A stretch of 40,534 nt of DNA from Planctomyces sp. (GTDB taxonomy: Bacteria > Planctomycetota > Planctomycetia > Planctomycetales > Planctomycetaceae): NCBI GenBank assembly GCA_005798445.1, contig SYJG01000338.1:1-40534 (forward strand). The letters run 5' to 3'. Position numbers and translations under genes: made by a program. This document shows, in pieces, positions 562 through 40,521 of the stretch. Every line of letters starts with the position of its first letter. The first letter of the stretch is position 1. Below the pieces are notes generated by a model. The model did no database searches. It was not told the DNA's origin and saw nothing but the letters and a program-made list of their open reading frames with translations.

Positions 562-647
562 CAGGTACATTCGGCATTGCGAAAATAACGCCACCGGGGC
601 AAGGGGACTGTCGTTTTATACTTCGCGCGGGGAATCATGAGAGATTC

Positions 648-723
648 GGCGAGCGGCAGGGCGTCAGCCCTCCGAGGCAGAGCAAATGGAATCACTCGGA
701 GGGCTGACGCCCTGCCGCTCGCC
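648..723. repeat. Palindromic element, family 1, intergenic copy
   Basis: Two perfectly complementary 28-nt arms (648-675 and 696-723) flank a 20-nt loop. The arm core reads GCAGGGCGTCAGCCCTCCGA. It sits between the convergent clpB and PSD1 genes, where the hairpin could end transcription from both sides, although no T-tract follows. The left arm plus about 30 nt upstream (617-665) recurs in reverse orientation at 26940-26990, and a related element lies inside the PSD1 gene at 2639-2716. Confidence 0.85.
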
Positions 724-839
724 AAAAACATCTCATTCGAGACCGCGTGGGGTATAGCGGCGGGGTCCGGAGACCCGCGCCGAACTCGGCGACGATGACC
801 TCGGAAGCAAGCCATGCCACCCGCAGACAAGAGACACGC

Positions 840-3800
840 TCAAGGGACATAGATGAATTCCTTGAGGTTGAAAATGCTGTGCGCCACGTCTTTCCAGACG
901 GCTTGGCTCGTAAGTACCTCGGCCGGTGGAACACCGTGAAGTTCGGCGATCTGCTCGACCGCTTGCTCGAAGCGAGTTTGCTCTTCCGGCGCGAGCGCAC
1001 GTTGGCACGCGGTCCCGAACATCGTTTGCAAGCGTTCCGCGACCGATTTGTGCGAACGAGTGATCAACCGCTGCGCCCAGACTTCGGCTTGTTGCAGCAC
1101 AAACGGATCGTTGAGCAGCGCGAGCGCCTGAGCCGGAACGTTTGTGACGTCGCGGCGGCCTTGAGTCACCTTGCCGCCGGGGAAGTTGAACGCTTCGAGA
1201 AACTTCGGGCCTTCCATCAGATTGTTCTTGATGTAAATGCTGCGGCGGCCGTGACCGTCCAGCGGGCCGGCAAAGAGGCGGCGATCGGCATAGTCCTTGT
1301 CTCGGAACGGCTGCACGCTGGGACCGAACAGCGTGCGATCGAGTCGGTCGCTCGCGGCCAGCATCGAATCGCGAATCGCCTCGGCTTCCAATCGTCGAGC
1401 CGGATAATGCTGCAACAACCGGTTCTGCGGATCGACTTCCCGCGATGCGGCCGACGGTTGATTCGACAACTGAAACGTCTGCGTCAGCACGAGCGACCGG
1501 ATCAACTTCTTCATCGACCAGCCTTCGGCCACGAAGCGAGTCGCCAGATGATCGAGCAGCTCCGGGTGCGACGGCAGTTCGCCGACATGCCCGAAGTCAT
1601 CGACCGTCCGAACGAGTCCCGTTCCAAACAAGTGATGCCAGACGCGATTCACGATGACTCGCGCCGTGAGCGGATTACTCGGACTCGCGATCTGATCGGC
1701 GAGTTCCAGCCGCCCGCTGCCGGCTGTCACGAATGGATCGCGCGAGGCGGACAGCACTTCGAGGTATCGTCGCGGGGCGACTTCTCCCGGCCGAGTGACG
1801 TCGCCGCGGCCGAAGATCGGTTGATCGTAGGCCTGACCCGATTCGCCAACTCCCGCGACGACACGCGGCAGAGCGAGTTGTGCTTCGGTCTGCCGGTATT
1901 CCTTTGCCAACTCGGTCAATCGCGGCGAAGAGCCGACTTGATTGGCGAGCAGTTCGCGTCGCAGCAATGCGTCGAGCCACCGAGCATCCTCGTCCGTCGC
2001 ACGATCCTCGGCCCAAGCTCGCAGTACAGCTTCGATGACAGCGACATATCGAGTCGAAATATCGGCGAGAGACGTCGGCTCATCTCCGGTGAACAACGGA
2101 CGCAGATGCGACACTTCCGCTCGCGGCGGTTCCGGACCATCGTGCAGCACGACACGCGTGATGCCGAAGTACGACCGCGGATTCTCGGCCGCCTTGTCCC
2201 ACGGCAATTTGTAGTTCTCTTTGTCGCCTCCCAGTGCCGAAAGCTGATCGGGAAACTTCGGGTTGTCGAACATCGTCATCAGCTCGGCATACGTCCGCAG
2301 CGAGTCGCGGTCGTCAGGAGGCGAGAAGGTCTCCCAATGCAGATCGGCCGAGGTCAACGCTCGGTAGTTTTTGTAGTTCAACTGACAGTTGTTCGAGACC
2401 AACCGCACCGCGCTGCTCCGCTGGCCGAGCACTTGAAAGCTGATGTTCTTCTTGCCGAGCGGCAGGACCGGCGAGCGAAGTGTGCCATTGAGTTTGTCCG
2501 ACAGCGCGTGCGTGAAACAGCCGGCCGGCAACACCGCGCGAACGAGCGCGTCGCCGTCGGGATGCATCGCGAAATCGCCGCTGCGCCCCGGATTGTTTCG
2601 CAGCGCTTGCCCGCCGATCTGCCAACCATTTGCTTCAAGCGAGCGGGGCGGCGTCAGCCCCCCGGTTTTTGCGAAGTTGACTGAAGAGACCGGGGGGCTG
2701 ACGCCACCCCGCTCGCCTGAAGAGAGGGAGTAGTCGCCGAACGTCTCGAACTGCGACCGGTTGAATTCGATTCGATCACGGTCCTCTTTGGCATACCGGT
2801 CGGCCAGCTTCTGCCACTCCGCCGGGACTGCGGCGGGATCGGTCATCGTCGCGGTGACGAGAACTCGCAACGGCTCGAACGGATCTTCGAGCGGCATCTT
2901 TTCGGCGGCCAGAACGGCGATCCATTTTTCCAATTGCTTGGCATCCAAGCCTACCGCGAGTTCCGCAGCGTCGGGTCGGTTCGCGCGTTTCGCGATCGCC
3001 GCTTGCAAGTACCGTGCGAACTGTGACGTCTCTTGCGACCAGACAGCAGCGAGCTCCTTACGCAGTTCCTTCTTCAACTCCGTCAGCCGTTGTGTGAGCT
3101 TCGCGTTGACGTCGGGCGCGTCGATGCAGTGACTCACCAGCCGCGAGCTGCGCAGGATGCCGAGCATCCCGTAGTAGTCCTGCATCGAGACCGCATCGAG
3201 TTTGTGGTTGTGACACCGAGCACACGCGACGGTCGTCGCTTGAAACGCCTTCGTCAGCGTGTCGATCTGATTGTCGATGATGTCGTAGCCCAGCGACGCC
3301 AGGCTGATGCAGTCGTCGTGATTGACCTCGCCGAAGCGGTAAAAGCCGGTGCCAATGATCGACTCGTTAAAGCGTTCGGTGGGATGCAGGCGAGCTCTGT
3401 AGGGTGGGTCGAGTCCGCGAGACCCACCAACGGCAGTTGCGCGTCCATCGCTAGTGGTGGGTCTCGATGACTCGACCCACCCTACGGGAAGCAAGTCCCC
3501 CGCGATGTGCTCGCGAATGAATTGGTCGAACGGGATGTCGGCGTTGAAGGCCCGGATCAGGTAATCGCGATACCGCCAGGCGTGATGGACTTCGTAGTTC
3601 CACTCATTGCCGTGAGTCTCGGTGAAACGAACGACGTCCATCCAATGCCGCGACCATCGCTCACCGAAGTGCGGAGAGTCAAGCATTGAATCGACGAGCT
3701 TCTCGACCGCAACACGGGAGGGCGAGGCTCCCGCAGAGCCGCCATCACGCACGCACTCCGCAACTTGTTCGGATGTCGGCGGCAGCCCGGTCAGCACGAG

Positions 3801-4409
3801 GCTCAATCTGCGGACGAGCGTTCGCGGATTGGCTGGTTCAGCGGGCGTGAGTCCCTGTTGCTCCATTCGCGCGAGCACAAAGCGATCGACGGCATGATCG
3901 GACCAACCGGCCTGTTTTGGTTTCGGGACTTCCACGTTCTGCACCGGTTGCAAGCTCCACCAGCGAGCGCGAACGCGCATCGTCTCTTCCCACGAGTCAG
4001 CGGCCTTCGCGGGGACCGGCTTGTCGCGCGGATCGGGTGCTCCTCGTTTGATCCACTCTTCGAGGTCCGCGATGGCCACCGCCGGCAGTTTCCCTTTCGG
4101 TGGCATCTTCAGGGAGTCGTCGGTGTACCGCACCGCTTTGATGAGCAGACTCTCGTCCGGCTTCCCCGGCACGATCGCAGCTCCCGAATCGCCCCCTTTG
4201 CGCATGCCGTTGCGGCTGTCGAGCAACAATCCGCCCCCCAACTTCTTGGCATCGGCCGCGTGGCACTCGGAGCAATGCGCAACGAGCAACGGTCGGATTT
4301 TCTTCTCGAAGAATTCGATGCCAGCGTCGTCCGCGTCGGCTGGACCTGGCGACAAGATCGCCGCGAGAGAGACGGCCGATAAAGCAACGAGGTTTCGCAA
4401 TGCGTTCAT
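840..4409 (-). CDS. PSD1 / DUF1549 / DUF1553 cytochrome-like surface protein
   Basis: This 1189-residue exported protein belongs to a family found mainly in Planctomycetota. In order: signal peptide (about 1-27), planctomycete cytochrome c domain with haem motif CSECH at 46-50 and a distal MPPKGKLP segment, DUF1549 (about 155-420) with a second CxxCH (CARCHNHK), and DUF1553 near the C-terminus (LTARVIVNRVWHHLFGTGL onward). The biochemical role of the family is not settled; polysaccharide breakdown has been proposed from gene context. The start is an ATG before a clear signal peptide, with no strong ribosome site. The frame carries two complete palindromic elements (3399-3485 and 2639-2716) and one short one (about 3716-3742). 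These insert low-complexity stretches such as GWVESSRPTT and SGERGGVSPP without breaking the frame. No DUF1501 partner is adjacent. Confidence 0.92.
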   Translation of the reverse strand: MNALRNLVALSAVSLAAILSPGPADADDAGIEFFEKKIRPLLVAHCSECHAADAKKLGGGLLLDSRNGMRKGGDSGAAIVPGKPDESLLIKAVRYTDDSLKMPPKGKLPAVAIADLEEWIKRGAPDPRDKPVPAKAADSWEETMRVRARWWSLQPVQNVEVPKPKQAGWSDHAVDRFVLARMEQQGLTPAEPANPRTLVRRLSLVLTGLPPTSEQVAECVRDGGSAGASPSRVAVEKLVDSMLDSPHFGERWSRHWMDVVRFTETHGNEWNYEVHHAWRYRDYLIRAFNADIPFDQFIREHIAGDLLPVGWVESSRPTTSDGRATAVGGSRGLDPPYRARLHPTERFNESIIGTGFYRFGEVNHDDCISLASLGYDIIDNQIDTLTKAFQATTVACARCHNHKLDAVSMQDYYGMLGILRSSRLVSHCIDAPDVNAKLTQRLTELKKELRKELAAVWSQETSQFARYLQAAIAKRANRPDAAELAVGLDAKQLEKWIAVLAAEKMPLEDPFEPLRVLVTATMTDPAAVPAEWQKLADRYAKEDRDRIEFNRSQFETFGDYSLSSGERGGVSPPVSSVNFAKTGGLTPPRSLEANGWQIGGQALRNNPGRSGDFAMHPDGDALVRAVLPAGCFTHALSDKLNGTLRSPVLPLGKKNISFQVLGQRSSAVRLVSNNCQLNYKNYRALTSADLHWETFSPPDDRDSLRTYAELMTMFDNPKFPDQLSALGGDKENYKLPWDKAAENPRSYFGITRVVLHDGPEPPRAEVSHLRPLFTGDEPTSLADISTRYVAVIEAVLRAWAEDRATDEDARWLDALLRRELLANQVGSSPRLTELAKEYRQTEAQLALPRVVAGVGESGQAYDQPIFGRGDVTRPGEVAPRRYLEVLSASRDPFVTAGSGRLELADQIASPSNPLTARVIVNRVWHHLFGTGLVRTVDDFGHVGELPSHPELLDHLATRFVAEGWSMKKLIRSLVLTQTFQLSNQPSAASREVDPQNRLLQHYPARRLEAEAIRDSMLAASDRLDRTLFGPSVQPFRDKDYADRRLFAGPLDGHGRRSIYIKNNLMEGPKFLEAFNFPGGKVTQGRRDVTNVPAQALALLNDPFVLQQAEVWAQRLITRSHKSVAERLQTMFGTACQRALAPEEQTRFEQAVEQIAELHGVPPAEVLTSQAVWKDVAHSIFNLKEFIYVP
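2639..2716. repeat. Palindromic element, family 1, in frame inside PSD1 gene
   Basis: Arms of 28 nt (2639-2666 and 2689-2716) pair with one mismatch around a 22-nt loop. The element lies wholly inside the PSD1 gene and keeps its frame. It encodes SGERGGVSPP on one arm and KTGGLTPPRS on the other. The core shares GGCGTCAGCCC with the intergenic element at 648-723. Confidence 0.85.
3399..3485. repeat. Palindromic element, family 2, in frame inside PSD1 gene
   Basis: Arms of 31 nt (3399-3429 and 3455-3485) begin and end with GTAGGGTGGGTCGAG and its complement. It lies in the DUF1549 region between AGDLLP and RLHPTERFNES, two blocks that are normally nearly adjacent in this family. Read in frame it gives GWVESSRPTT and GGSRGLDPPY. 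Confidence 0.85.
3716..3742. repeat. Short palindromic element encoding GSAGASPSR, inside PSD1 gene
   Basis: GGGAGGGCGAGGCTCCCGC forms a small hairpin. In the gene frame it encodes GGSAGASPSR between ECVRD and VAVEKLVDSML of the DUF1549 domain. From memory, similar GSAGASPS / REGEAPAEP strings recur in planctomycete genomes, which suggests a dispersed element; only one copy was seen here. Confidence 0.55.
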
Positions 4410-4464
4410 CAGAGGTTCTCAGCACTGCGGATCAAAGGGTGGGAGACAACAGGGCTGGGCATCG

Positions 4465-4553
4465 TAACCCGAAGCGCCAGCGAGGGCGAACGTTTTGTGG
4501 TCCGTCAATTTCGAAGTCACTGGAGGTTTCGCCCTCGCTAGCACTTCGGGTTA
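4465..4553. repeat. Palindromic element, family 3 (AACCCGAAGCGCCAGCGAGG), copy 1
   Basis: Imperfect 26-nt arms (4465-4490 and 4528-4553) begin TAACCCGAAGCGCCAGCGAG and end with the complement. The element fills the gap between the nitrilase gene stop and the PSD1 gene start, both on the minus strand. A second copy with the same arms is at 36801-36896. Confidence 0.85.
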
Positions 4554-4571
4554 TTTTCGGCGAGAGATCGC

Positions 4572-5450
4572 TTACACGGACGTGACGTCTCGCGAGCGGG
4601 GATGATCGACCAACTGGCCGCTATGGAGTTGGCCGCTCATCGCGGCGGGCCTCCACGGAGCGGGAGCGTCGAAGCAGCCGGGATCGAGCTTCATCTCGGT
4701 GACGAGCACTCCGGCACGATGTCGCGGCAAGCGACCGACGATCAGACCGTCGGGGCGAACCGCGAAACTCCCCCAGCACGACGGGCGGGCGGTGCTGTTA
4801 TTCGCGCTGATCCAGAAATGATTCTCGGCCGCTCGGCATTGCATGGTCGCCGGGACGATCGTCTTCCAGATGTTGTATTTCGGATCAGCCGCAACCGTCT
4901 TGCGAGCGTTGTGAAACGACTGAAACATCACCTCGACGCCAAGCTGCTTGTAGCCACGATACAGCTCCGGAAAGCGATAGTCGTAGCAGATGGCGACTCC
5001 GCAGGTGATCCCCTTCACTTGGAACGTCACGAAGCGGTCGCCCGGTGAATAGTGGCACAGATCGAGCGTCGTCTTCTTGCCGACGGTCCCCGTGCAAAAG
5101 CGTTTGTCGTAGCGATCGACCATCTGACCTTTCGGATTGATGACGTACACGCAGTTGTGCGGCTTGTGCTTTTCGTCCAACTGATGCGTCGAGCCGAGCA
5201 GCACCAAGACTCGATGTTGTTTGGCAGCGGCCATCACGTCGCGCGTCGCGTCGGCCAGTGCCGTCCAATCCAAATCGGCAATGCCGGGGAGATCAACGCC
5301 AGCATATCCGGACAACGCACACTCCGAAAAATGCACGACGTCGGCCGATTGCTCGGCGGCCTGAGCGATCTGCTTCAGCACCCAACGACGGTTATGCTCA
5401 ACTTGGCCTTCCACGGAAAACTGGCAGGTGGCAATGCGGAGCGATTTCAT
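4572..5450 (-). CDS. Carbon-nitrogen hydrolase (nitrilase superfamily)
   Basis: A 292-residue cytoplasmic hydrolase that would cleave a non-peptide C-N bond (amide or nitrile) in an unidentified small substrate. All three nitrilase-superfamily catalytic residues are visible: Glu43 (FSECALSG), Lys116 (DRYDKRFC) and Cys155 (CGVAICYDYRFPELYR). Length is normal for the family. I chose the ATG at 5450 because MKSLRIATCQF is the usual first strand; the frame remains open 25 codons further upstream but that part is unlike the family. It is divergent from the 402-residue gene at 5513, separated by 62 bp that should hold both promoters. The PSD1 gene follows on the same strand beyond a palindromic element. 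Confidence 0.88.
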   Translation of the reverse strand: MKSLRIATCQFSVEGQVEHNRRWVLKQIAQAAEQSADVVHFSECALSGYAGVDLPGIADLDWTALADATRDVMAAAKQHRVLVLLGSTHQLDEKHKPHNCVYVINPKGQMVDRYDKRFCTGTVGKKTTLDLCHYSPGDRFVTFQVKGITCGVAICYDYRFPELYRGYKQLGVEVMFQSFHNARKTVAADPKYNIWKTIVPATMQCRAAENHFWISANNSTARPSCWGSFAVRPDGLIVGRLPRHRAGVLVTEMKLDPGCFDAPAPWRPAAMSGQLHSGQLVDHPRSRDVTSV

Positions 5451-5512
5451 CGAACGAGACCTCCAGGCAACGAGTCTTGTGGCAGCGAGCGAGCAAGACA
5501 TACCATCGGCGC

Positions 5513-6721: not shown

Positions 6722-6739
6722 CCCGGCCCGTTCGGCAAC

Positions 6740-7550: not shown

Positions 7551-7581
7551 AGGGCGAATGATCCTTCACAAACGTTGGCGG

Positions 7582-8455: not shown

Positions 8456-9298
8456 TCACCGCGCAGTGGCCACGTTTGGCCGTTGTGGGTCGAGGACTTT
8501 GCTGATGAAGCGGGCTTGGAAGCGGGTGAGGAGTTCGGGGAGTCCCTCGCGGAGTTCCAGGTCGCGTTCTTCCGTGTACAGGCCGAAGACATCGTAGAAG
8601 ACGACTTCCTCACTCTCGCGCTGTTGTGGCCGGTCTCCTGACCGAGCCACGCTGGGGCGTGTCCAGCGGCCGAACTCGGAGGGGTTGGCCAGCAGCATCA
8701 GGCAGGACATTTTGGTGTTGGGAGCGAACGGCTCCGGCGGTTCGCCGTTGGCGATGATCGTGTGCGGGCCGCCCAGCCATGTGTCGTTGTCGTGCGGGTA
8801 GCGAGCGATCCGCTTGAGCCATTCGATCGGCCAGTAGAATTCATTGGGCAGCCGATCCTCTTGTTGTGGGCGGTCTCCTGACCGAGCCACAGTCCCTTGA
8901 CCGAAGGTCTCCTCATTCGGACCGCTTGCCCCATTCGAAAGACCTGCGGTCGGCCGAAGTGGCTCGGTCGGGAGACCGGCCACAACAGCGTGTTGCGGGT
9001 TCGCAAACGCATCGAGCGTCAACGGCCAGTCGCTCGGCAGCCGCAACACCAGCTCGGCAAACTGAAACGCCTCGCCCCCCGCCGGAACGGTCAGCGGTCG
9101 AGCCGACATCCCCTCCGTCACCAGAATCTGCTCGTCCTCCGTCCGAATCACAGGAATCGCAATCGGCAAATCCGTCGGCACGATCTCGCGAAGAGCCAAC
9201 GGCTCCGGGGCGCCGAGGAAAGAAGAAAGATGAGTCACGAAACCATCGTCTCTCGGAAAATCCGGAACAGTGGCCAGCCCAAGCTCTTCGGCCGTCAT
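8456..9298 (-). CDS. SUFU-domain protein with ankyrin-like upstream part (putative immunity protein, damaged)
   Basis: From ATG 9298 this is 280 residues; the open frame extends upstream to 9691. Directly before the ATG it encodes an ankyrin-like unit (GADINSAWAGERALG, then NEYGHEDIAENLRTNGA), so the true N-terminus appears lost or replaced. The body is a suppressor-of-fused (SUFU) domain: ILVTEGMSARPL, then WPIEWLKRIARYPHDNDTWL, then KMSCLMLLA and VVFYDVFGLYTEERDLELRE. SUFU and ankyrin proteins are documented immunity proteins of bacterial polymorphic toxins, so immunity is my inference. Two palindromic elements interrupt the domain in frame: a full one (8862-8987) and a single arm (8622-8650, read as VARSGDRPQQ). 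Whether the protein still folds is doubtful. Confidence 0.7.
   Translation of the reverse strand: MTAEELGLATVPDFPRDDGFVTHLSSFLGAPEPLALREIVPTDLPIAIPVIRTEDEQILVTEGMSARPLTVPAGGEAFQFAELVLRLPSDWPLTLDAFANPQHAVVAGLPTEPLRPTAGLSNGASGPNEETFGQGTVARSGDRPQQEDRLPNEFYWPIEWLKRIARYPHDNDTWLGGPHTIIANGEPPEPFAPNTKMSCLMLLANPSEFGRWTRPSVARSGDRPQQRESEEVVFYDVFGLYTEERDLELREGLPELLTRFQARFISKVLDPQRPNVATAR
8622..8650. repeat. Palindromic element, family 4, single arm in SUFU gene
   Basis: One 29-nt arm (TGTTGTGGCCGGTCTCCTGA then CCGAGCCAC) inside the SUFU gene, read in frame as VARSGDRPQQ. The same half-element interrupts the SUFU copy at 11668-11696 at the equivalent position, so it pre-dates the duplication. Confidence 0.8.
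8862..8987. repeat. Palindromic element, family 4, full copy in SUFU gene
   Basis: Outer arms 8862-8890 and 8959-8987 (29 nt) pair almost perfectly. An internal CGACCGCAGGTCT-type repeat forms a second, inner stem. It adds about 42 residues to the SUFU frame between DAFANPQ and NEFYWPIEW. Nearly identical copies are at 11908-12033 and, less similar, 9601-9725. Confidence 0.85.
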
Positions 9299-9426
9299 TG
9301 CGCCATTTGTTCGGAGATTCTCCGCGATGTCCTCATGACCATACTCGTTGGCAACATTCAAGGCCCCCAAGGCCCTTTCACCGGCCCAAGCTGAGTTGAT
9401 GTCCGCCCCTCGGCCAGCGCTCACTA

Positions 9427-9600
9427 ACGGCCAGCAGCAGCAGGCAGGACATTTTCGTGTTGGGAGCGAACGGCTCCGGCGGTTCGCCGTTGGCGATGAT
9501 CGTGTGTGGGCCACCCAGCCAAGTGTCGTTGTCGTGCGGGTAGCGCGCGATCCGCTTGAGCCATTCGATCGGCCAGTAGAATTCATTGAGCCGCCGATCT
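9427..9600 (-). pseudogene. Duplicated SUFU-domain fragment
   Basis: About 55 codons nearly identical to the SUFU segment of the neighbouring gene (NEFYWPIEWLKRIARYPHDN through to KMSCLLLLA). The fragment is bounded on its 5' side by a palindromic element (9601-9725) and runs straight into the ankyrin-like sequence in a different frame. It has neither a complete domain nor its own credible start. Confidence 0.8.
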
Positions 9601-9725
9601 TGTTGTGGCCGGTCTCCCGACCGAGCCACTTCGGCCGACCGTAGGTCTCCCGAAGGCAACACGTGGTCCGAATGAGGAGACCTTCGGTCAACGGGCTGTG
9701 GCTCGGTCAGGAGACCGGCCATAAC
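9601..9725. repeat. Palindromic element, family 4, between methyltransferase and SUFU fragment
   Basis: Outer arms 9601-9629 and 9697-9725 carry TGTTGTGGCCGGTCTCCCGA then CCGAGCCAC and a near-complement. It sits exactly between the 3' end of the intact methyltransferase (stop at 9734) and the duplicated SUFU fragment. Confidence 0.82.
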
Positions 9726-11314: not shown

Positions 11315-11357
11315 AGCAAGTGAATCTCTCTGCAAAATGGAGCCAACAGCAGCGCTC

Positions 11358-11503
11358 GGCGCGGGTCTCTTGACCTCGCCGAAACGCGCGACCGATAGGT
11401 CTCCCGCACGATGATCAAGGTACGTTCAATGACTTCCGGAAACAGGATGGAGACCTGCGGTCCATCTCTGCGGCGGGGTCAGGAGACCCACGCCGAGCGC
11501 GTT
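11358..11503. repeat. Palindromic element, family 5 (GGCGCGGGTCTCCTGACCCC type)
   Basis: An imperfect inverted repeat: CGGCGCGGGTCTCTTGACCT near 11357 pairs with CGGCGGGGTCAGGAGACCCA near 11471, with an inner GGTCTCCC / GGAGACCTGCGG pair. It separates the start of the intact methyltransferase from the SUFU end of the chimeric frame. A related element lies inside cbiM (25951-26078), and a half-copy near 760-785. Confidence 0.7.
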
Positions 11504-11516: not shown

Positions 11517-12392
11517 TCACAGCGCCACGTTGGGACGTTGTGGGTCGAGGACTTTGCTGATGAACCGGTCTTGGAATCGGTTGAGGAGTTCTGGCAGTCC
11601 CTCGCGGAGTTCCAGGTCGCGTTCTTCCGTGTAGAGGCCGAAGACATCGTAGAAGACGACTTCTTCTTGTTGTGGGCGGTCTCCTGACCGAGCCACGCTG
11701 GGGCGAGTCCAGCGGCCGAACTCGGAGGGGTTGGCCAGCAGCATCAGGCAGGACATTTTGGTGTTGGGAGCGAACGGCTCCGGCGGTTCGCCGTTGGCGA
11801 TGATTGTGTGCGGGCCGACCAGCCATGTGTCGTTGTCGTGCGGGTAGCGCGCGATCCGCTTGAGCCATTCGATCGGCCAGTAGAATTCATTGAGCCGCCG
11901 ATCCTCTTGTTGTGGGCGGTCTCCTGACCGAGCCACAGTCCCTTGACCGAAGGTCTCCTCATTCGGACCGCTTGCCCCATTCGGGAGACCTGCGGTCGGC
12001 CGAAGTGGCTCGGTCGGGAGACCGGCCACAACAGCGTGACATAGGATGTAATCGAACGACTCCGGCGGCGCGTCGAAGGCCAAAATATCTTGATGCCTCA
12101 GCTCGACGTTCTTCAGTCCCGCCTGTTCGATCAGCCGTTGTCCGTCTTGAATCTGCCGGCTCGACAGGTCGAGTCCCAGAAACGTCCCCTCCGGAAATTG
12201 ATCGGCGATCGGCAGCAGATTTCCGCCGCTGGCGCAGCCCAACTCCAAGACTCGCGCCCGCTCGATTGGCGGCGGCGTCATGCCGTGCAGAGTCGCGATC
12301 ACCGCCAGCCGGTCGGGATGCGACTGCCGAAATGGGTGGCTTTTGTACGGCACTCGGTCATACGAGGTAGCGGCGGCGGAAGCGGTCGGCAT
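11517..12392 (-). CDS. Chimeric frame: methyltransferase N-terminus joined to SUFU C-terminus
   Basis: An uninterrupted frame whose two halves belong to different families. Residues 1 to about 120 copy the methyltransferase start through the SAM motif as far as FDYILCH. A family 4 palindromic element (11908-12033) follows in frame, then the SUFU C-terminal half (NEFYWPIEW... to DPQRPNVAL). The methyltransferase break falls exactly at the element's edge. The SUFU part again carries the half-element at 11668-11696. The N-terminal SUFU half (ILVTEGMSARPL) is absent. Neither half is a complete domain, so function is unlikely; it may be translated. Confidence 0.65.
   Translation of the reverse strand: MPTASAAATSYDRVPYKSHPFRQSHPDRLAVIATLHGMTPPPIERARVLELGCASGGNLLPIADQFPEGTFLGLDLSSRQIQDGQRLIEQAGLKNVELRHQDILAFDAPPESFDYILCHAVVAGLPTEPLRPTAGLPNGASGPNEETFGQGTVARSGDRPQQEDRRLNEFYWPIEWLKRIARYPHDNDTWLVGPHTIIANGEPPEPFAPNTKMSCLMLLANPSEFGRWTRPSVARSGDRPQQEEVVFYDVFGLYTEERDLELREGLPELLNRFQDRFISKVLDPQRPNVAL
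11668..11696. repeat. Palindromic element, family 4, single arm in chimeric SUFU
   Basis: A 29-nt single arm (TGTTGTGGGCGGTCTCCTGA then CCGAGCCAC), at the same SUFU position as 8622-8650 in the other copy. It is in frame and read as VARSGDRPQQ. Confidence 0.8.
11908..12033. repeat. Palindromic element, family 4, at fusion junction
   Basis: A 126-nt element with outer arms 11908-11936 and 12005-12033, almost identical to 8862-8987. Its right edge is the breakpoint of the truncated methyltransferase: homology to the intact copy begins again within a few bases, at about 12035. Confidence 0.85.
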
Positions 12393-12465
12393 AACAAGCG
12401 AATCTCTCTGCAAAATGGAGCCAATAGCAGCGCTCGGCGCTGGTCTCCTGGTGACGACATCTCAT

Positions 12466-12822: not shown

Positions 12823-12824
12823 GA

Positions 12825-25460: not shown

Positions 25461-25586
25461 GTAGTCCTGTCGCTCCGCGACAGGATTGCCGAATGTCGAA
25501 AGACAGCGCAGTCGCCGAACAACGTCGGATGAACCAATCAGCCGCAACGCGCGCACAGCTTTCCTGTCGCGGAGCGACAGGGCTAC
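25461..25586. repeat. Palindromic element, family 7 (CCTGTCGCTCCGCGACAGG)
   Basis: 24-nt arms at 25461-25484 and 25563-25586 (GTAGTCCTGTCGCTCCGCGA plus CAGG, and complement) flank about 78 nt. Each arm is itself a small palindrome. It fills the gap between cbiM and cbiQ, so it lies within the probable operon transcript. Confidence 0.85.
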
Positions 25587-25602: not shown

Positions 25603-26736
25603 TCACTCACCGGCAGCCTCACTGAGTTGTTGCGGCGCGGCAGGCAGTCCTTTGCCCAACAGCCACGCGAGGGCGAATACGGCGAGTGTTCCGCCGATTC
25701 CAGCCAACGAAACCGCGATCGACTGCCACGCGGCGACCGGAACGGGGACTTTGTCGTAGTCTTCCAGCAACCCCGGCACGCGATTCGTGAGATTGAAATT
25801 CTCGATGCCGAGTTTGCCGAGCACTGCTTCCAGTCCGTCATCGAAGCTCGACGCGAACGGCGACAGGAACGCCGCGATCGCCAGCGCGATGACGAGTCCA
25901 GCCACGAGCGTGCGCGTGAGCGGCAAGGCGCTAGCCGCCGGTTTCGCTCGCGCGCGGCGCGGGTCTCCCGACCCCGCCGTTGTCCCGACCGCAGGTCTCA
26001 CCGAGATGCGGTCGAGGTCCAATTCGGGAGACCTGCGGTCAGTCGCAAGCGGCGGGGTCGGGAGACACGCGCCGAGCGCTGATCGATCCGCGCCGAACGC
26101 ATCTTGCAGAAGCTCCGGCCGTTGATTCAGCACGAAGCTGATGGCGAAGCCGGTGATGAGCGCCTCACCGAGTCCGATCAGTGAATGGAAGCTGACCATC
26201 AGCGTAAAGAATCTCGAGAAGTCGATCTCGCTGGACGGCCACGAGAGACGGATCTCCAAACAGGCGAGTGACGCCGCCGCCATCACGCTCGCCCAGGCGG
26301 CGACCACCGAGCCGATGACGAGGCCCTTGCGGCTGTCTCCGACGAATCGCTGGACACACAGCCGCACGGCGTGTCCGCCCCAGGAACCGATCACCGCCAT
26401 GTGCAACACGTTTGCGCCGAGAGCGAACAAACCTCCGTCCGAGAACATCGCCCATTGCACGAACAGCACCAAGGTCAACGCGACGCAGCCGGCCCACGGA
26501 CCAACGACCGTCGCGGCAAGCACTCCGCCGAGCAAGTGCCCACTCACCGGTGTACCGATCGGAAAATTGACCATCTGCCCCGCGAAGACCAGCGCGGCCA
26601 TCATGCCGGTCAGCGGGATCGTCCGATCACCGACCGATTGCTTGAGCCGATGCACGCTGTAGCTCACCGCTGCGAGCGAGATCGCTCCGGTAGCGGCACA
26701 GACGACCGGACTGAGTACGCCGTCTTGGATGTGCAT
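25603..26736 (-). CDS. cbiM: Cobalt/nickel ECF transporter substrate-binding protein CbiM with C-terminal PDGLE domain
   Basis: 377 residues starting MHIQDG, the N-terminal Met-His that binds Co/Ni in CbiM/NikM proteins. Seven or so membrane segments follow (FAGQMVNFPIGTPVSGHLLG and GANVLHMAVIGSWGG are conserved). The C-terminus (FLSPFASSFDDGLEAVLGKL onward, plus a last membrane segment) is a PDGLE/CbiN-like domain, so the M and N components are fused. The linker between them (about 225-272) is encoded by a palindromic element at 25951-26078. The order M-Q-O on one strand forms a complete importer; whether it takes cobalt or nickel cannot be told from the sequence. Confidence 0.93.
   Translation of the reverse strand: MHIQDGVLSPVVCAATGAISLAAVSYSVHRLKQSVGDRTIPLTGMMAALVFAGQMVNFPIGTPVSGHLLGGVLAATVVGPWAGCVALTLVLFVQWAMFSDGGLFALGANVLHMAVIGSWGGHAVRLCVQRFVGDSRKGLVIGSVVAAWASVMAAASLACLEIRLSWPSSEIDFSRFFTLMVSFHSLIGLGEALITGFAISFVLNQRPELLQDAFGADRSALGACLPTPPLATDRRSPELDLDRISVRPAVGTTAGSGDPRRARAKPAASALPLTRTLVAGLVIALAIAAFLSPFASSFDDGLEAVLGKLGIENFNLTNRVPGLLEDYDKVPVPVAAWQSIAVSLAGIGGTLAVFALAWLLGKGLPAAPQQLSEAAGE
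25951..26078. repeat. Palindromic element, family 5, in frame inside cbiM
   Basis: GCGGCGCGGGTCTCCCGACC then CCGCCG (about 25955-25980) pairs with CGGCGGGGTCGGGAGACACG then CGCCGAGCG (about 26050-26078). An inner CCGCAGGTCTC / GGAGACCTGCGG pair is also present. It encodes the linker between the membrane and PDGLE parts of CbiM. Confidence 0.82.
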
Positions 26737-27333
26737 CGTGGAAGCTCCGAATCCGACAAGGTGGGTTGGGGCGAGGATTCTGCCAGACGATAGGGGCGGA
26801 TCGCAATTTCACGGCGGTTGGGCTTTTCAAAAGGGTGCAAATCGAGGGCAGGCATTGTCGCATTGTGCCGGCTCAGTGCTGGCAGAGTCGGTCATCGACG
26901 GGCCTTTCAAGTAAGCACGGGGCCTCGAATGAGGTGTTTTTGACGCCCTGCCGCTCGCCGAATCTCTCATGACTCCCCGCGCGAGGTGTAGCGTCGGATC
27001 GTGAATCATTTGAGCGGCAGACTTTCGGCTCTCGATGGCCGGCGGGCATAGCGCATTCGCCACCTTCGGTTCTCGCGGTTGAATAGACATGTTCCGTAAG
27101 TTCGCTGCGCGTGCGACGGTGCGAGCAATCGGTGCCGGTCGAGCATCCGCTGTGAGTTGTACGCTGCGCGGGATGTCGGCGAGATGCCGTCGTTGCCACG
27201 CGAACAAACGGCGTTTTGGGTCTCACTCCGCCGATATCTCCGTGTGATTTCCCAGAATCCACTTGCCAATTCTCCAAGCTTTATTTGCAGCGTCCGCCAC
27301 CCCAAGGCGTATCGCTCGTCGGAGTGGTGCGAC
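26737..27333. other. Divergent intergenic region with half-element
   Basis: About 600 bp between cbiM (minus) and the propeller lipoprotein gene (plus), without a convincing gene. It contains a heptamer repeat GCATTGT at 26852-26858 and 26860-26866, inside GGCA...TGCC, about 120 bp before cbiM, which might be an operator. It also holds a reverse copy of the family 1 element's outer half (26940-26990). No cobalamin or NiCo riboswitch was recognised. Confidence 0.5.
26940..26990. repeat. Half-copy of family 1 element with conserved flank
   Basis: Fifty bases that match the reverse complement of 617-665 with about four differences, including CCGCTCGCCGAATCTCTCAT. The homology extends about 30 nt beyond the palindrome arm, so the mobile unit is larger than the hairpin. 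Confidence 0.8.
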
Positions 27334-30463: not shown

Positions 30464-30568
30464 GATTCGATTTTCGATGGCCGATTTTTGATTTTCGATT
30501 TGGGAAGGCGACTCTTGCGATGTTCTCACTGCCTTCCATCGAAAATCAAAAATCAAAAATCGAAAATG
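30464..30568. repeat. AT-rich palindromic element, family 8, copy 1
   Basis: GATTTTTGATTTTCGATT (about 30483-30500) pairs with CATCGAAAATCAAAAATC and what follows (about 30537-30568), with a matching outer GATTCGATTTTCGATGG. It lies between the M16 protease gene and the 51-residue gene, and is far more AT-rich than its surroundings. Confidence 0.8.
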
Positions 30569-30739: not shown

Positions 30740-30750
30740 GTGTGATGAAT

Positions 30751-30830
30751 TTGTGATTTTCGATTTTTGATTTTCGATTGAACCGCAGTTCTCGTTCACA
30801 ATCGAAAATCAAAAATCACAAATCGACAAT
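30751..30830. repeat. AT-rich palindromic element, family 8, copy 2
   Basis: TTGTGATTTTCGATTTTTGA then TTTTCGATTG (30751-30780) pairs with CAATCGAAAATCAAAAATCA then CAAATCG (30799 onward). It lies between the 51-residue gene and the signalling operon. It resembles copy 1 closely, but the loop differs. Confidence 0.85.
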
Positions 30831-32598: not shown

Positions 32599-32620
32599 CT
32601 CCTGACCGACGGATGATTTG

Positions 32621-35214: not shown

Positions 35215-35408
35215 GGTTGCTTTCCTAAATTTGGACGATGGAGGTACCCACTTTGCCGACTCATAACTTCCGAGTGGTCACAAACAATTCCGATCAGCGC
35301 ACCAAGTCCAAAAAGCAGACCAATGATGATTGTGCTACTTGAGAAGTTGACATACGACATCGCAATTGTGTTCGATTTTTCATCGACCGCCAGGCAAGCA
35401 TGCCCCAT
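35211..35408 (-). CDS. Possible small membrane protein
   Basis: 65 residues from ATG 35408, only 6 bp after the propeller gene stop. Its own stop overlaps the Gfo/Idh start (ATGA). One clear membrane segment (STIIIGLLFGLGALIGIVC, about 25-43) sits between polar ends. The tight spacing on both sides argues for translation; the lack of any recognised family leaves doubt. Confidence 0.4.
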   Translation of the reverse strand: MGHACLAVDEKSNTIAMSYVNFSSSTIIIGLLFGLGALIGIVCDHSEVMSRQSGYLHRPNLGKQP

Positions 35409-35414
35409 GCTCTG

Positions 35415-36701
35415 TCACTTTTTCACATCCAGGCAAACGATCTCTTTGTCGTCGCGCAGAAACAATCGGCCGTTCGACAGCGCCGGAGCTTGACGAGTTG
35501 ATTCGAGCACCGTCGCGCGGCCGAGTTCGTCGTAGCGTTTCGGCGTGGCTCGTGCAACGACGAGTTCGCCGTTCATTGTCGTGATAAACAGTTTGCCGTC
35601 AGCGGCGATCAGGTTCCCTTTGCCGAAGCGAGCCTCTTGCCACTTGCGTTCGCCGGTCGCGGCATCGATGCAGGTCAGATGCGTGATCGGACCGGCTCCG
35701 CCGACGTTGTCCATGCCGTACAAGTGACCGTCCAACAGCATCGAAGTTTGCCACTCGTTGCGCAGAACACTTTTGGGTCCAATGGAATGCCAGACTTCGC
35801 TGAGCTCGAACTTGTCTCCCTGCGGTTTCAGGGCGAGCAACACGCTGCCGTGATTCTCGCCCGCCGAGAGGAAGACTTGCCCTTGGATTTCCAGCGGCGT
35901 TGCGATGTTGCAGTGGAAATTCGTCTTGAAGGGATACTGCCACAGCACCGAACCTGTTTCAGGATCGACTCCCAATGCCGAGCTGCCAGTGAACGCGACA
36001 ACCTGTGAGCGGCCTCCCCCATTCAACAGCGCCGGCGACGAGTAGCCTGCCGAGTCGCTGCCGGCGGTCCAGAGCTGCTTGCCGGAATTCGTGTCGAATG
36101 CCACGAGCGTTCCCTTCGAAGCGCCGGCCGTGACGATGACGTGTTTGCCGACAACCAGCGGCGAGCAGGCCATGCCGTACTCCGCTTCCTTGCCGGAGAG
36201 TTCTTTGACGACGTGGTGTGACCAAACTTGTTTGCCGTCGCGGAAGTCATGCGCGGACAAGATCCCTTCGCCGGTGAAGGCAAAGACCTGATCGCCGGAG
36301 ATCGCTGGAGTTCCGCGCGGGCCGTTCCCCATCGCATTCTGGTATTCGGGAGCCAGTGACGTTTGCCAGACGGACTCGCCGGTCTTTGCATCGAGCGCGA
36401 TCAACCACTGCTTCTCGTCACGTTGCACGAGTGTCAGCACTCGGCCGCGACTGATCGCCAGGCCCGACATCCCGACTCCACCGGGAACGCGCCAGATTTC
36501 CTTCGGTCCATCGGCAGGCCAGCGATCTAGCAGGCCGGTCTCGGCAGACAGCCCGTTGCGTGTCGGGCCGAGGAACTGTGGCCACTCACCCTTGGCATCC
36601 GCTTGAGCTGTGGCACGCTCGGCCGTCAGCGACAAGGCGATCGCCATGAGAGCCATCATGATCCACATCTGCCGCACGTATCGCTGAACAGTGACGGTCA
36701 T
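35415..36701 (-). CDS. Exported PQQ-like beta-propeller protein
   Basis: 428 residues from ATG 36701, with AAGGAGG (36706-36712) 4 nt before it. The N-terminal signal peptide (MWIMMALMAIALSLTAERAT) has an AxA-type site near AERATAQA. The mature protein opens with WPQFLGPTRNGLS, a hallmark of planctomycete PQQ-like (quinoprotein alcohol dehydrogenase-like) propellers. Several blade repeats follow (LIALDAKTGESVWQTSL, LVAFDTNSGKQLWTAGS, ALGVDPETGSVLWQYPF, LTCIDAATGERKWQEAR). Catalytic quinoprotein residues were not evident, so it is probably a binding or scaffold protein. It is divergent from the second Gfo/Idh gene. Confidence 0.9.
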   Translation of the reverse strand: MTVTVQRYVRQMWIMMALMAIALSLTAERATAQADAKGEWPQFLGPTRNGLSAETGLLDRWPADGPKEIWRVPGGVGMSGLAISRGRVLTLVQRDEKQWLIALDAKTGESVWQTSLAPEYQNAMGNGPRGTPAISGDQVFAFTGEGILSAHDFRDGKQVWSHHVVKELSGKEAEYGMACSPLVVGKHVIVTAGASKGTLVAFDTNSGKQLWTAGSDSAGYSSPALLNGGGRSQVVAFTGSSALGVDPETGSVLWQYPFKTNFHCNIATPLEIQGQVFLSAGENHGSVLLALKPQGDKFELSEVWHSIGPKSVLRNEWQTSMLLDGHLYGMDNVGGAGPITHLTCIDAATGERKWQEARFGKGNLIAADGKLFITTMNGELVVARATPKRYDELGRATVLESTRQAPALSNGRLFLRDDKEIVCLDVKK

Positions 36702-36800
36702 CGTTCCTCCTTGTTGGACGCTTGAGATCGGGCTTCGGTCGCTCGTCGCACACGCGAGCGGTACTCTATCGACGATCGCACGAACCGTCGCGGCGAAATC

Positions 36801-36896
36801 TAACCCGAAGCGCCAGCGAGGGCGGACGCTTCACCAACTTTCATTCGCCGATTCAACGTCACTTGAAGCGCTCGCCCTCGCTGGCGCTTCGGGTTA
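36801..36896. repeat. Palindromic element, family 3, copy 2
   Basis: 24-nt arms (36801-36824 and 36873-36896) carry TAACCCGAAGCGCCAGCGAG and its exact complement. It lies in the divergent promoter region between the propeller gene and the second Gfo/Idh gene and ends 15 bp before the latter's ATG, so it probably forms a hairpin at its mRNA leader. Confidence 0.87.
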
Positions 36897-36911
36897 GTTT
36901 GGGAACCATCC

Positions 36912-37943
36912 ATGTCAGGAATCACCGTTGCCGTCCTCACGAACACTGCCGGAGCACACCTTGGTGCTTATCTCGAAGGACTTGCCAGCATCGAAGAGGT
37001 GGATGCGGTCGTCGTTGCCGATCCCAGCGGAGGAAGCGAGGCATCCGCGAAGAAAACTCTCGGAACCAAGCTGAAGAGCTTCGAGCGCGATCACGGCAAG
37101 GCTCTGGTTGAACACAAGCCGGCACTGGCGTTGGTCACGATGGAAGCGGTGCATTCGCCGCCGGCGATCCAAGCGGCGCTGGAAGCCAACTGTCATGTGT
37201 TGGCCGAGAAGCCTTCCTGCGTGCGAGCCGAGGATTTTGAGCCACTCGCGCGGCTGGCGGACATGAAGCATCGGCATCTGACGTTGGCTTTGGCGAATCG
37301 CTTGCTCGGCACCGTGCAGACGGCGAAGAAGCTGATTCAGTCGGGACAGATCGGGAAACTCTTCGGCTGCGAACTGCACATCATTGCCGATCAAACACGG
37401 CTCAAGAGCCCGACCTATCATCAATCGTGGTTCGCCGACAAAGCTCGCGCCGGCGGCGGGCATTTGATTTGGCTGGGGATTCATTGGCTCGATTTGGCGA
37501 TGTACATGACCGGGTCGAAGATCGTTGAGGTGACCGGCTTCACCGGCATTGTCGGTGGGCAGCCTCTGAAGGCGGAGGACTCGGCGGCGATGGCGTTGCG
37601 GTTCGACAACGGCAGCTTCGGGACAATGACCAGCGGCTACTACCTCGATCGCGGTTATCACTCGCACATCAAGATTTGGGGTTCGCACGGGTGGGTGCAA
37701 CTCGATCCACACGGCGGCGAGCCGTTGCAGTGGTACAGCACGAAGGACACTCCGCCGCAGATCAAGAAGTACGAAGGCCCGGCTGACCAATCCAGCTACA
37801 CTCCGCTGGTGAAAGAGTCCGTTCGAGCCGCGATGGGACTTACCCCGCCGCCGCTGTCCGGGGCCGACAGCCTGCATGTCCTGAAGACGGTCTTCGCCTG
37901 TTACCGTGCGGCCGAGACCGGCCACTCGCAGCACGTGAGGTGA
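36912..37943 (+). CDS. Gfo/Idh/MocA-family oxidoreductase, cytoplasmic
   Basis: 343 residues from ATG 36912, with no signal peptide, unlike the exported relative at 33901. The family motif EKPSCVR is at 99-105, and the C-terminal domain includes GGGHLIWLGIHWLDLAMYM, the usual G-G-x-L-x-D/W-x-G-x-H block. The N-terminal strand (ITVAVLTNTAGAHLGAYLEG) lacks the canonical GxGxxG, so cofactor binding may be altered. The substrate is unknown. Its leader contains a palindromic element. Confidence 0.88.
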   Translation: MSGITVAVLTNTAGAHLGAYLEGLASIEEVDAVVVADPSGGSEASAKKTLGTKLKSFERDHGKALVEHKPALALVTMEAVHSPPAIQAALEANCHVLAEKPSCVRAEDFEPLARLADMKHRHLTLALANRLLGTVQTAKKLIQSGQIGKLFGCELHIIADQTRLKSPTYHQSWFADKARAGGGHLIWLGIHWLDLAMYMTGSKIVEVTGFTGIVGGQPLKAEDSAAMALRFDNGSFGTMTSGYYLDRGYHSHIKIWGSHGWVQLDPHGGEPLQWYSTKDTPPQIKKYEGPADQSSYTPLVKESVRAAMGLTPPPLSGADSLHVLKTVFACYRAAETGHSQHVR

Positions 37944-38016
37944 CGAACGGGGTCACGACTTTCACTAACCCGAAGAGGTTGTGATTTTTTTGCCACCGTC
38001 GCCGGGACGCGTCGGT

Positions 38017-40278
38017 TTAGCTTGCAGCGGCGGACTGATTGCTAGCCGCCTCATCCGTGAAAAAGTCGATCTTGCCGGTGACGACGTCGTAGAGCGCGCC
38101 GACGACGGCGATTCGGCCTTCCTGGACCAGTCGATTGATGGTGCGACTATCCCGCTGGATGCGTTCGACGGTGTGCATGACATTCCGGCGAGCGACGGCG
38201 TCGACCAAGTTCGCTCTCTCATCCTCAGACAATCGTTCCAAATGTTGGCACGAGGGTAGGTCGATCGCATTTTGGATCTCGCGAATGATCGGCTCCAGAT
38301 GCTGGCAGCCGGTCGCCTGCTCGGCGTTGGTCTGCGAGCCTGCCAAGTTGACGGCCGCCGTCACCGCTCCGCATTGCGTGTGTCCGACAACGACAATCAG
38401 CTTTGCTCCGGCGACCGCACAGCCATATTCCATGCTGCCCAGCACCTTCTGGCTGATGATGTTGCCCGCGATGCGAATGCTGAAAATGTCCCCCAACCCA
38501 AGATCGAAGATCAACTCGGACGGCGTGCGCGAGTCAATGCAACTCAAGAGCACCGCGAGCGGGTGTTGCCCCAAGGCGGTCGCTTGGAGTTGTCGTTCCA
38601 AATCCCGCGTCAACCGCTTCCCGGTGCGGAAGCGTTCGTTGCCCTCTTGGAGAATCTTCAACACTTGGGCCGAAGTGAGCAGCCCTTGCAGATCGTGGGT
38701 CGAATAATCCACATATTGGATCTCGTTTTGAAGATTGTATTTGTTCCGAAAGCCGCGCAGGCTGACTTGCACGCCGCGAATCGGAGCCGTTTGTTCCTTG
38801 AAGTCGCGAATCATGCTGAGAATGTCCGGGTCGATGTAGACCGTGTTCAGAGCGTCCAGCAGGATGTGACCTCCGCGAGGAATCGAATTGAAGACTTTGT
38901 CCAGCGCCCCGCGGTTCAGAAAACTGACCTGATTGGCCAGTTCGACATGCAAGACATCGCCACCCAAATGCCGTTCAACGATGCTCCTGACCGGCCGCAG
39001 CACGTTGCTGCTCAAGATAAACGCGAGGCTGACGGCCAGTCCGATCAAAATGCCGACCAGCAAGTCGGTCATCACGATCGAAACGACGGTCAGGATGAAC
39101 GGCAGGAACTGATAGCGACCTTCGCTCCACATCTGCCGAAACAACGCGGGACTGGCCAGCTTGAGACCCGTCACCAACAGAATCGCGGCCAGACACGACA
39201 GCGGGATGAGGTTGAGAGTCATCGGCAGGAACATCACCGAGACCAGCAACAACGTGCCATGCACGATCGTGGCCAGCTTGGTCTGTCCTCCGGCGTTGAT
39301 GTTCACCGAACTCCGCACGATCACCGATGTCACCGGTAGTCCGCCGATGAGTCCGGACAGCACATTGCCAATCCCTTGAGCCAATAACTCGCGGCTGGGC
39401 GGGGATGAACGCTGTCGGCGATCCAGCTTGTCGACCGCCTCCAGGTTCAGCAGCGTTTCCAGTGAGGCCACGATCGCAATCGTGATTCCGGCGGTGTACA
39501 CGGCGGGATTTCCGAGTTGCGAAAAATCGGGCAGCTTGAGAAACCCCAAGAAATCACGCACGGAACTCGAGACCGGCACCTGAACCAAGTGGCTCGCCTC
39601 AATCGACCACCGGCCACCCCATTGCTCGAACAGCCGAGCCAGTCCGATACCCAGCAACACGACAATCAGCGGAGAGGGGACGATCGACTTCTTCAGCTTC
39701 GGAACCTTGTCCCAGATTACCAGCAGCACGATCGACAGGAGTCCGATGACGGCCGCACCTTGATGCAAGTCGCCGATCATCGCCAGGAATTCCGACAACG
39801 TATTCTCGTGGTCCGGCTGCGAGAACGACATTTCGCCTTCGGGATCGGTGTCGTGTCCCAGGACGTGCGGAATCTGTTTCAAAATCAAAATGACGCCGAT
39901 CGCCGCGAGCAGTCCTTTGATCACGCTGCTGGGAACGAACGCCGACAGAACACCGGCTCGCGCCAGCCCCAATCCAATTTGGATCAGCCCGCCAATCATC
40001 ACCGCCAACAAAAACGCCTCGAACGATCCGAGGTGCGCGATCTGCGCCGCCACGACCGCCGTCAGCCCGGCCGCCGGTCCACTGACGCTCGTGTGTGATT
40101 GACTCAGGACGCCGACCACCAAGCCACCGATGATTCCGGCCAACAGACCGGAAAACAGCGGCGCGTTCGACGCCAACGCAACTCCCAAGCACAACGGCAG
40201 AGCCACGAGAAAGACCACCAAGCCAGCGATCAAATCGCGAGGCACCGTGTTCCTCGAAAAGACTTTGGTTTGGGTCAT
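38017..40278 (-). CDS. SulP-family anion transporter fused to a beta-carbonic anhydrase
   Basis: 753 residues from ATG 40278; TGAGGAG (40285-40291) lies 6 nt before it. The first 430 or so residues are a SulP membrane domain (VPRDLIAGLVVFLVALPLCL, VSGPAAGLTAVVAAQ, GLPVTSVIVRSSVNINAG). A STAS-like region follows (DVLHVELANQVSFLNRGALD). From about 530 the chain is a beta-carbonic anhydrase with zinc ligands Cys580 (SCIDSRTPSE), His633 and Cys636 (VGHTQCGA), and the Asp582-Arg584 dyad. Such fusions are known in bacteria and are thought to couple bicarbonate transport to CO2 hydration. The active site looks complete. The 71 codons upstream of this ATG are not family-like. Confidence 0.94.
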   Translation of the reverse strand: MTQTKVFSRNTVPRDLIAGLVVFLVALPLCLGVALASNAPLFSGLLAGIIGGLVVGVLSQSHTSVSGPAAGLTAVVAAQIAHLGSFEAFLLAVMIGGLIQIGLGLARAGVLSAFVPSSVIKGLLAAIGVILILKQIPHVLGHDTDPEGEMSFSQPDHENTLSEFLAMIGDLHQGAAVIGLLSIVLLVIWDKVPKLKKSIVPSPLIVVLLGIGLARLFEQWGGRWSIEASHLVQVPVSSSVRDFLGFLKLPDFSQLGNPAVYTAGITIAIVASLETLLNLEAVDKLDRRQRSSPPSRELLAQGIGNVLSGLIGGLPVTSVIVRSSVNINAGGQTKLATIVHGTLLLVSVMFLPMTLNLIPLSCLAAILLVTGLKLASPALFRQMWSEGRYQFLPFILTVVSIVMTDLLVGILIGLAVSLAFILSSNVLRPVRSIVERHLGGDVLHVELANQVSFLNRGALDKVFNSIPRGGHILLDALNTVYIDPDILSMIRDFKEQTAPIRGVQVSLRGFRNKYNLQNEIQYVDYSTHDLQGLLTSAQVLKILQEGNERFRTGKRLTRDLERQLQATALGQHPLAVLLSCIDSRTPSELIFDLGLGDIFSIRIAGNIISQKVLGSMEYGCAVAGAKLIVVVGHTQCGAVTAAVNLAGSQTNAEQATGCQHLEPIIREIQNAIDLPSCQHLERLSEDERANLVDAVARRNVMHTVERIQRDSRTINRLVQEGRIAVVGALYDVVTGKIDFFTDEAASNQSAAAS

Positions 40279-40445
40279 GAATGGCTCCTCAATGAATCGA
40301 GTTCGGAAAACGGAGTGCCGCGATGTCACCCGAAGCGTGAGTTTTGAAGTTGCGCAGTTGTTGATTTTGAGACTGCTCCCCACCGACCTCGCGTCATTGG
40401 TATCTACACAACTCTGCGAACCCCATGAAAACGTGTCCGCCTTAC

Positions 40446-40521
40446 CTCTGCGCTCTTCGCTTCTCTGCGGTAAAAATGCAGTTTCCGTCACTTTTACCGC
40501 AGAGAAGCGAAGAGCGCAGAG
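40446..40521. repeat. Perfect 30-bp inverted repeat, family 9
   Basis: Arms 40446-40475 and 40492-40521 (GCGCTCTTCGCTTCTCTGCG plus flanks) are exact complements around a 16-nt loop. It lies upstream of the SulP-carbonic anhydrase gene, about 170 bp before its start, at the window's end. Confidence 0.9.

Follow-up and report, generated by a model that had tools for sequence, protein, structure and literature searches.

REP/BIME (REPIN) systems with their RAYT (TnpA-REP) enzymes, organised as REPtrons, are described as inverted pairs of short hairpins; a genome holds several families, and each family flanks a Y1 gene of its own (PMC3733652, PMC6006769). TnpA-REP is described as cleaving and rejoining REPs (PMC6006769). 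For Planctomycetes, both REPs and RAYT-type enzymes have been published (PMC3733652, PMC6006769), and a class 3 of TnpA-Y1 from Planctomycetes, Acidobacteria, and Proteobacteria is characterised by Y----Q and N-H-x-H motifs and by hairpins with a CnGA foot (PMC6006769). Intragenic REPs are reported for Opitutus terrae and Rickettsia; the cases described resemble ours in being in-frame palindromic insertions in protein genes (PMC10969869, PMC3733652). For the CGTC repeats, to which RPE-4 and RPE-6 are assigned, the account in PMC3733652 reports no dedicated transposase. The same source also gives an example from recB, where Xanthomonas campestris and X. oryzae carry different REPs at roughly one position. 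REP/RAYT systems and in-frame REPs are thus known already; what is new here is that the same protein loops are used repeatedly by different families. The literature within reach of our search, most of it outside subscription journals, held no recurrent insertion of different REP families at the same site in Planctomycetes.

The window is the whole stretch of DNA analyzed, 40,534 nucleotides in length (G000:C311:1-40534); its genome (G000) is a 7.96-Mb assembly of 553 contigs that is 90% complete. An earlier note on this stretch had described recurring palindromic elements and knew of no mechanism or name for them in planctomycetes. The recurrence is confirmed, and the hairpin arms and their coordinates in the window proved correct; the statement on mechanism and name is superseded by the REPs and RAYT-type enzymes described in PMC3733652 and PMC6006769. 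The unnamed elements gain a likely mechanism: most are very probably REP-type, non-autonomous elements moved by cognate RAYTs, with the in-gene survivors located in permissive loops, while two families differ. A single genus harbors many REP families beside their enzymes, and in frame in a penicillin-binding protein (PBP), UbiD, and a cobalt transporter.

Palindromic elements in the window and their copy number

One scan of the window found 12 inverted-repeat elements with arms of at least 18 nt, compared to none in each of 20 dinucleotide shuffles. Two full elements (3399-3485 and about 11352-11500) and several half copies fall outside these 12. All are collected in Table 1, where families A, B, E4, and E5 are families 1, 3, 4, and 5 of the earlier note. 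Its recurring families had not included the full element at 25461-25586 and the half units at 758, 3716, and 25918. For family A it had given three places: the first (648) stands, the second (2639) is only A-like, with 6 of 26 positions mismatched per unit, and the third (26940) is an internally deleted copy. Its five places for E4 between 8.6 and 12.0 kb were also recovered; all fall within or beside direct duplications of 93-98% and so do not represent five independent events. In the ORF at 11517-12413(-), a methyltransferase N-terminus is fused to a SUFU domain, and the junction lies at an E4 element, as if duplication and rearrangement had occurred through the palindrome.

Table 1. Palindromic elements and a host gene in the window.
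Feature	Position	Strand	Remarks
Family A composite, 140 bp	617..756		core BIME 648-723, unequal outer arms, ends TATAC...GTATA
Half unit, family E5	758..785	-	abuts family A composite
Host gene, PSCyt1/PSCyt2(DUF1549)/PSD1(DUF1553) protein	840..4409	-	1189 aa
A-like BIME	2633..2722		in frame, PSCyt1/PSCyt2/PSD1 gene 840-4409(-), site 2
Family H BIME (GTAGGGTGGGTCGAG...), 87 bp	3399..3485		in frame, PSD1 gene 840-4409(-), site 1; GTAG-tagged
Half unit, family D	3716..3741	+	codes GSAGASPS, in frame in PSD1 gene 840-4409(-)
Family B BIME	4465..4553		intergenic
Family E4 half unit	8623..8650	+	within SUFU-domain ORF
Family E4 element	8862..8987		in frame, SUFU-domain ORF 8456-9691(-)
Family E4 element	9602..9725		5' edge of SUFU-domain ORF 8456-9691(-)
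Family E5 element	11352..11500		
Family E4 half unit	11669..11696	+	duplicate of 8623
Family E4 element	11908..12033		duplicate of 8862; junction of methyltransferase-SUFU fusion ORF 11517-12413(-)
GTAG-type BIME (GTAGTCCTGTCGCTCCGCGACAGGA)	25461..25586		
Half unit, family C	25918..25942	+	
Family E5 element	25950..26079		in frame, CbiM-PDGLE linker of gene 25603-26736(-)
Family A composite, one core arm deleted	26917..26991		
Family 8 element, A+T-rich (ATTTTCGATT...)	30470..30567		
Family 8, second copy	30749..30823		
Family B BIME	36797..36900		intergenic
170-bp MITE, cut by window end	40395..40534	+	TIR CATTGGTATCTACACAACTC at 40395, core hairpin 40446-40521

Copies of the arms occur throughout the genome, so the elements are not confined to the window. 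A genome-wide count was made for family A, and the other families were counted in a sample of the genome. With at most two mismatches, family A has 107 forward and 110 reverse half-units (217 in total; the backwards control gave 0). The 11 congeners have 17, 4, 3, 3, and 1 in five genomes and none in six; among 25 further genomes from the same taxonomic family a single one has 2, and 22 genomes of the same class have none. Contigs of this genome often end inside or just past family A and 40446-type elements, and the copy numbers from this draft assembly are therefore probably lower bounds. The sample was picked by family A hits, so that A is over-represented in it and its counts there are not a density.

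The family B BIME at 4465 is also present in G009 and G006, diverged in G003, and absent in G005 and G011. Outside the window, 12 units of family 8 were counted in the sample; the family also occurs once near the UbiD N-terminus.

RAYT transposases and the families that flank them

The genes called RAYTs here have HuH and Y motifs and a match to NF047646 or PF01797. In this genome the PF01797 profile search found 8 Y1 genes at E 0.001, and the NF047646 profile matched 12 times, at 11 loci (E 0.01); only one match (L148) exceeded the curated cut-off. The RAYTs of families E4 and D were found by NF047646 and are not among the PF01797 matches listed. As a test for flanking units, we determined the longest repeat shared by 650-nt windows at both ends of an ORF, with a threshold of 16 nt. 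A shared repeat of at least this length was present for 8 of the 11 RAYT ORFs of this genome and for 43 of 57 overall (from this genome and congeners, a subset of all profile matches), leaving 14 without one, compared to 12 of 600 random loci of this genome.

The earlier note proposed looking for a Y1 gene, perhaps RAYT-like, between copies of the window's arms, and this genome contains two such genes. Six units and two inner units of E4 surround the RAYT at G000:C392 (L148, with HLH and YLHENP motifs) on both sides; for comparison, the 346,677 bases sampled from the genome beyond the window contain 2 units of this family. Four units of family D, which has a half copy at 3716, surround the RAYT at G000:C143 (L151), again on both sides. 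Congeners add four more pairings of Y1 genes with arms of window families: family H flanks RAYT L154 in G007, the 25461 type flanks L184 in G006, family A-like units flank L087 (G007) and L185 (G006), and family B-like units flank L218 (G010) and L217 (G008). An A/C-like unit flanks L221 (G002). For family 8 and the 40446 family, the search yielded no flanking RAYT. The suggestion that several families are moved by one enzyme fared less well: the families pair with different RAYTs, which argues for related enzymes, one per family, and the family A composite and the 40446 element are of another anatomy. E5 and E4 have only inner units in common.

The elements share with REP/BIME systems short imperfect hairpins at high copy number, often in inverted pairs, and a cognate RAYT with the same units, found in this genome for E4 and D and in congeners for H, the 25461 type, A-like, and B-like units. 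They differ in their location and, for several families as judged by eye, in the foot. GTAG occurs in H and the 25461 type; by eye, neither GTAG nor CGTC was seen in B, D, E4, and E5, and family A, also without a GTAG foot, has CGTC inside the hairpin. Many copies lie within enzymes, at sites used by other families in congeners. In contrast to the Rickettsia and O. terrae cases as described, several families here have matching RAYTs.

RAYTs L185, L186, L087, and L179 form a supported clade (99/93), which L181 adjoins (98/94). Judged by motifs, the A/B-clade RAYTs L185 and L218 resemble the published description of class 3 TnpA-Y1 in N-H-x-H, Y----Q (YTLEAQ and YVLEAQ), and hairpin flanks, whereas L087 and L179 do not match Y----Q exactly. 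The assembly of this genome shows no A/B-clade RAYT, even though its sampled sequence is rich in A and B units; a profile of the clade gave no member there, only a weak match to another RAYT. The gene may lie in the unassembled part, given 90% completeness and contigs often ending at A copies, or it may have been lost. G011 has four family A units, but no PF01797 match at E 0.01 was listed for it.

Several candidate REPtrons were rejected. A family C pair lies beside L155 and L089, but on one side only, and the two RAYTs are near copies, so this is probably a single event. E4 is located near L152; however, a GTAG-type pair is closer, and the contig ends there. L004, L150, and L153 have an A-like element about 0.6-0.7 kb from the ORF, but L004 and L150 are each accompanied by a separate pair, and L153 is decayed.

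In the mechanism that we propose, an element made of two short hairpins (REPs), inverted relative to each other, would be copied and moved in single-stranded form by its HuH-Y1 transposase, the RAYT; the RAYT gene is itself bordered by units of the same family. Cleavage of the single strand and its copying would both be the work of the RAYT. Several RAYT-family pairs are found side by side in these planctomycetes. No target duplication was seen by eye at aligned REP-type sites, and movement is therefore deduced from presence and absence.

Copies in frame within genes

The reading frame around the elements was surveyed in 427,590 bases of this genome, made up of the window, 40 stretches, and 13 RAYT or Y1 loci. 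The survey contained 133 elements, 22 of them at edges; 111 were classed. Twelve are in frame inside a gene, four of these in the window (two being duplicates of each other), and 13 lie between two same-strand frames. One is in the same frame with a stop (L008 1260), 10 lie between opposite strands, 39 have coding sequence on one side, and 36 on neither. The hosts of the in-frame elements include a PBP (two elements), GlnE, UbiD, SUFU, DUF1549, and CbiM-PDGLE proteins.

The earlier note held that the copies inside genes all keep the frame. Comparison with orthologues upholds this for the elements at 2633, 3399, and 25950, and an open frame alone for the SUFU copies; the element at 9602-9725 lies at the ORF's 5' edge, and the survey put it among the elements with coding sequence on a single side. 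The elements are not built to be free of stops: 102 elements of at most 140 nt have on average 2.77 open frames of six, compared to 3.34 in shuffled sequences. Being no more open than shuffles, they do not owe frame keeping to a designed property of the element; it looks like the result of selection. Insertions into genes would survive only where the reading frame remains open and the protein can accommodate some 20-45 additional residues, presumably translated with the host, so that the survivors would be in frame and in loops and linkers.

In 11 of the 13 cases between same-strand frames, the upstream frame ends within -6 to +2 nt of the element start (the other two are L004 1246 and L013 4321), a figure that is partly forced because the scan excludes stops more than 6 nt before the element. 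Many elements thus stand directly behind stop codons, as would structural or regulatory hairpins (terminators, mRNA stabilizers) that are under selection and spread by recombination rather than transposition. We consider there to be next to no likelihood that the elements are of this kind, in view of 217 family A half-units in one species versus 0-17 in its congeners, of nested insertions, insertions within enzymes, and pairing with RAYTs, and of an Rfam scan of the window in which no family reached the gathering score.

Different families at the same protein site

Empty and occupied orthologues, both with open frames, were found for the PSD1 protein, the PBP, and UbiD (Table 2). In aligned orthologues, the inverted-repeat scores of 25 inserts were compared with those of 100 shuffles, and all frames were scanned at a score of at least 12.

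Table 2. Occupancy of six protein sites in the genome of the window and in congeners.
Site	Families present	Other states
PSD1 site 1	family H: own genome, G002, G007; GTAGGTTGGGTCTC family: G004, G006, G010	empty: G001, G003, G005, G008, G009, G011
PSD1 site 2	A-like: own genome, G002, G003, G004	without comparable insert: G005-G010
PBP site 206	family B: own genome, diverged G003; A-like: G004, G007; GTGGGGCAGG type: G005; GTAGCCGGCACAC type: G002	
PBP site 681	family D: own genome, G004, G007	empty: G002, G003, G005
UbiD site	E5: own genome; GTAGCTCGG type: G010, G007, weakly G005; GTAGCCAC type: G001	empty: G002, G003, G004, G006, G011, G012, G039; not alignable: G008
CbiM linker	E5: own genome; A-like: G007; GTAGGACGG type: G004; GGATGGGCAC type: G001, G005, G006	

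The G005 repeats at PBP site 206 and in UbiD score 12.5 and 10.5, respectively (null maximum 9.0 for both). At PSD1 site 2, G011 has a weak D-like repeat (11.0, null maximum 10.5), the repeat in G001 is not significant (7.0, null 95% 8.0), and a repeat in this region of G006 scores 14.0. The G001 insert at PBP site 681 is not a palindrome (score 5.5). The CbiM linker has a weak repeat in G002 (12.0) and none at 12 in G003 and G008; as congener linkers hold other palindromes, the shorter linkers are partly of this kind and are not plain empty sites.

At least two families occur at one site in four of the six sites firmly, and in five when the weak G011 repeat is counted; two sites have four clear families each. 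The published Xanthomonas case concerns one site, in recB. When all rows are considered, 33 site-family events fall into 17 clusters versus 25.7 expected under uniform placement (P 6e-5). With scores of at least 18, 19 events form 12 clusters (16.6 expected, P 0.003), and without the families present in the genome of the window, 26 events form 16 clusters (21.4 expected, P 0.003). The proteins were picked for insertions in this genome and the families collapsed by eye; moreover, uniform placement ignores that inserts are tolerated in loops only, and the test thus rejects uniformity, not survivorship.

The simplest reading is independent insertion into few permissive loops: a small number of tolerant sites would be reused by different families in different species. 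As a further possibility, which we regard as rather unlikely, the loops could be heritable docking sites at which later RAYT systems swap the resident palindrome for their own element by hairpin-targeted exchange. If so, the linkers of orthologous enzymes would turn over as cassettes between species, rather than through independent hits. Retention of one family at one site across species (family D at PBP site 681 and family H at PSD1 site 1, each in three genomes) would also be expected if gene-internal copies were kept for a function of the peptide they code. That explanation is very improbable, as unrelated peptides of different families occupy the same site, other species have no insert, and the CbiM linker is predicted to be disordered: AlphaFold2 gives residues 211-270 block-mean pLDDT values of 42-57 (overall mean 72.9, 26 sequences). 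Because one and the same site can be empty, hold the same family, or hold another family, depending on the congener, chance survival, function, and in-place replacement can be tested directly against one another.

The 11 named records nearest to the CbiM protein, at 69-79% identity, are labelled Planctomycetota, Planctomyces, or other planctomycete MAGs, some with the name of a lake (Erken, Pavin).

Two families of different structure

Two families would be exceptions to movement as simple hairpin pairs: family A, mainly a composite, and the 40446 element, a MITE that appears to land in hairpin loops. Family A copies are mostly 140-bp composites with unequal outer inverted arms. The sample has 81 units, 7 of them at edges; among the remaining 74, 64 have the outer arm (at most 6 edits of 26), compared to 5 of 1000 random positions. 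A search with the bare outer arm gave 27 hits, of which 25 were in loci examined (C70 and C219 were left out). Two of the 25 hits (in L035 and L036) are without an intact core, and one is the deleted copy of the window. Inspection of these loci showed no autonomous element.

The hairpin at 40446 forms the core of a MITE that measures 170-171 bp (261 bp in L225) and has 20-nt TIRs. Its arm occurs 16 times in this genome (control 0). Of the six distinct full copies seen, three are flanked by direct 9-bp target duplications: GTTTTGACT in L227, GGCTTGTCC in L236, and ACGCGAGGT in L225, which carries another core. In L227 the MITE is inside the loop of a family A element, and other A copies show how that loop looks when empty. 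The 9-bp sequences to the left and right of the MITE are in opposite orientation in L226 and L228, and L235 has no 9-bp duplication. TIRs, small size, and target duplication mark this element as a MITE. It resembles bacterial MITEs with TIR and TSD and REP-targeting insertion sequences in its TIRs, its 9-bp duplications, and its landing in palindromes; it differs from bacterial MITEs in its REP-like hairpin core and in the second core found between the same TIRs.

Alternatively, all elements might be plain MITEs of ordinary DDE insertion sequences, with TIRs and target duplication, and the Y1 genes bystanders. The 40446 element fits this description, and the family A composite, with its unequal outer arms and TA at the ends, may do so. 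For the elements as a whole we consider it improbable: E4, D, H, the 25461 type, and A/B-like units lie on both sides of Y1 genes far above random, and the aligned REP-type sites are without a target duplication visible by eye.

In L010 (1912-1990), the outer arm of a family A composite runs into family B-like sequence, apparently a nested insertion. In L225, the 1497-1757 region (1742-2002) has the 20-nt TIRs of the 40446 type around a different core with CCCAGGG hairpins; this core is of the type located beside the Y1 genes L001 and L002.
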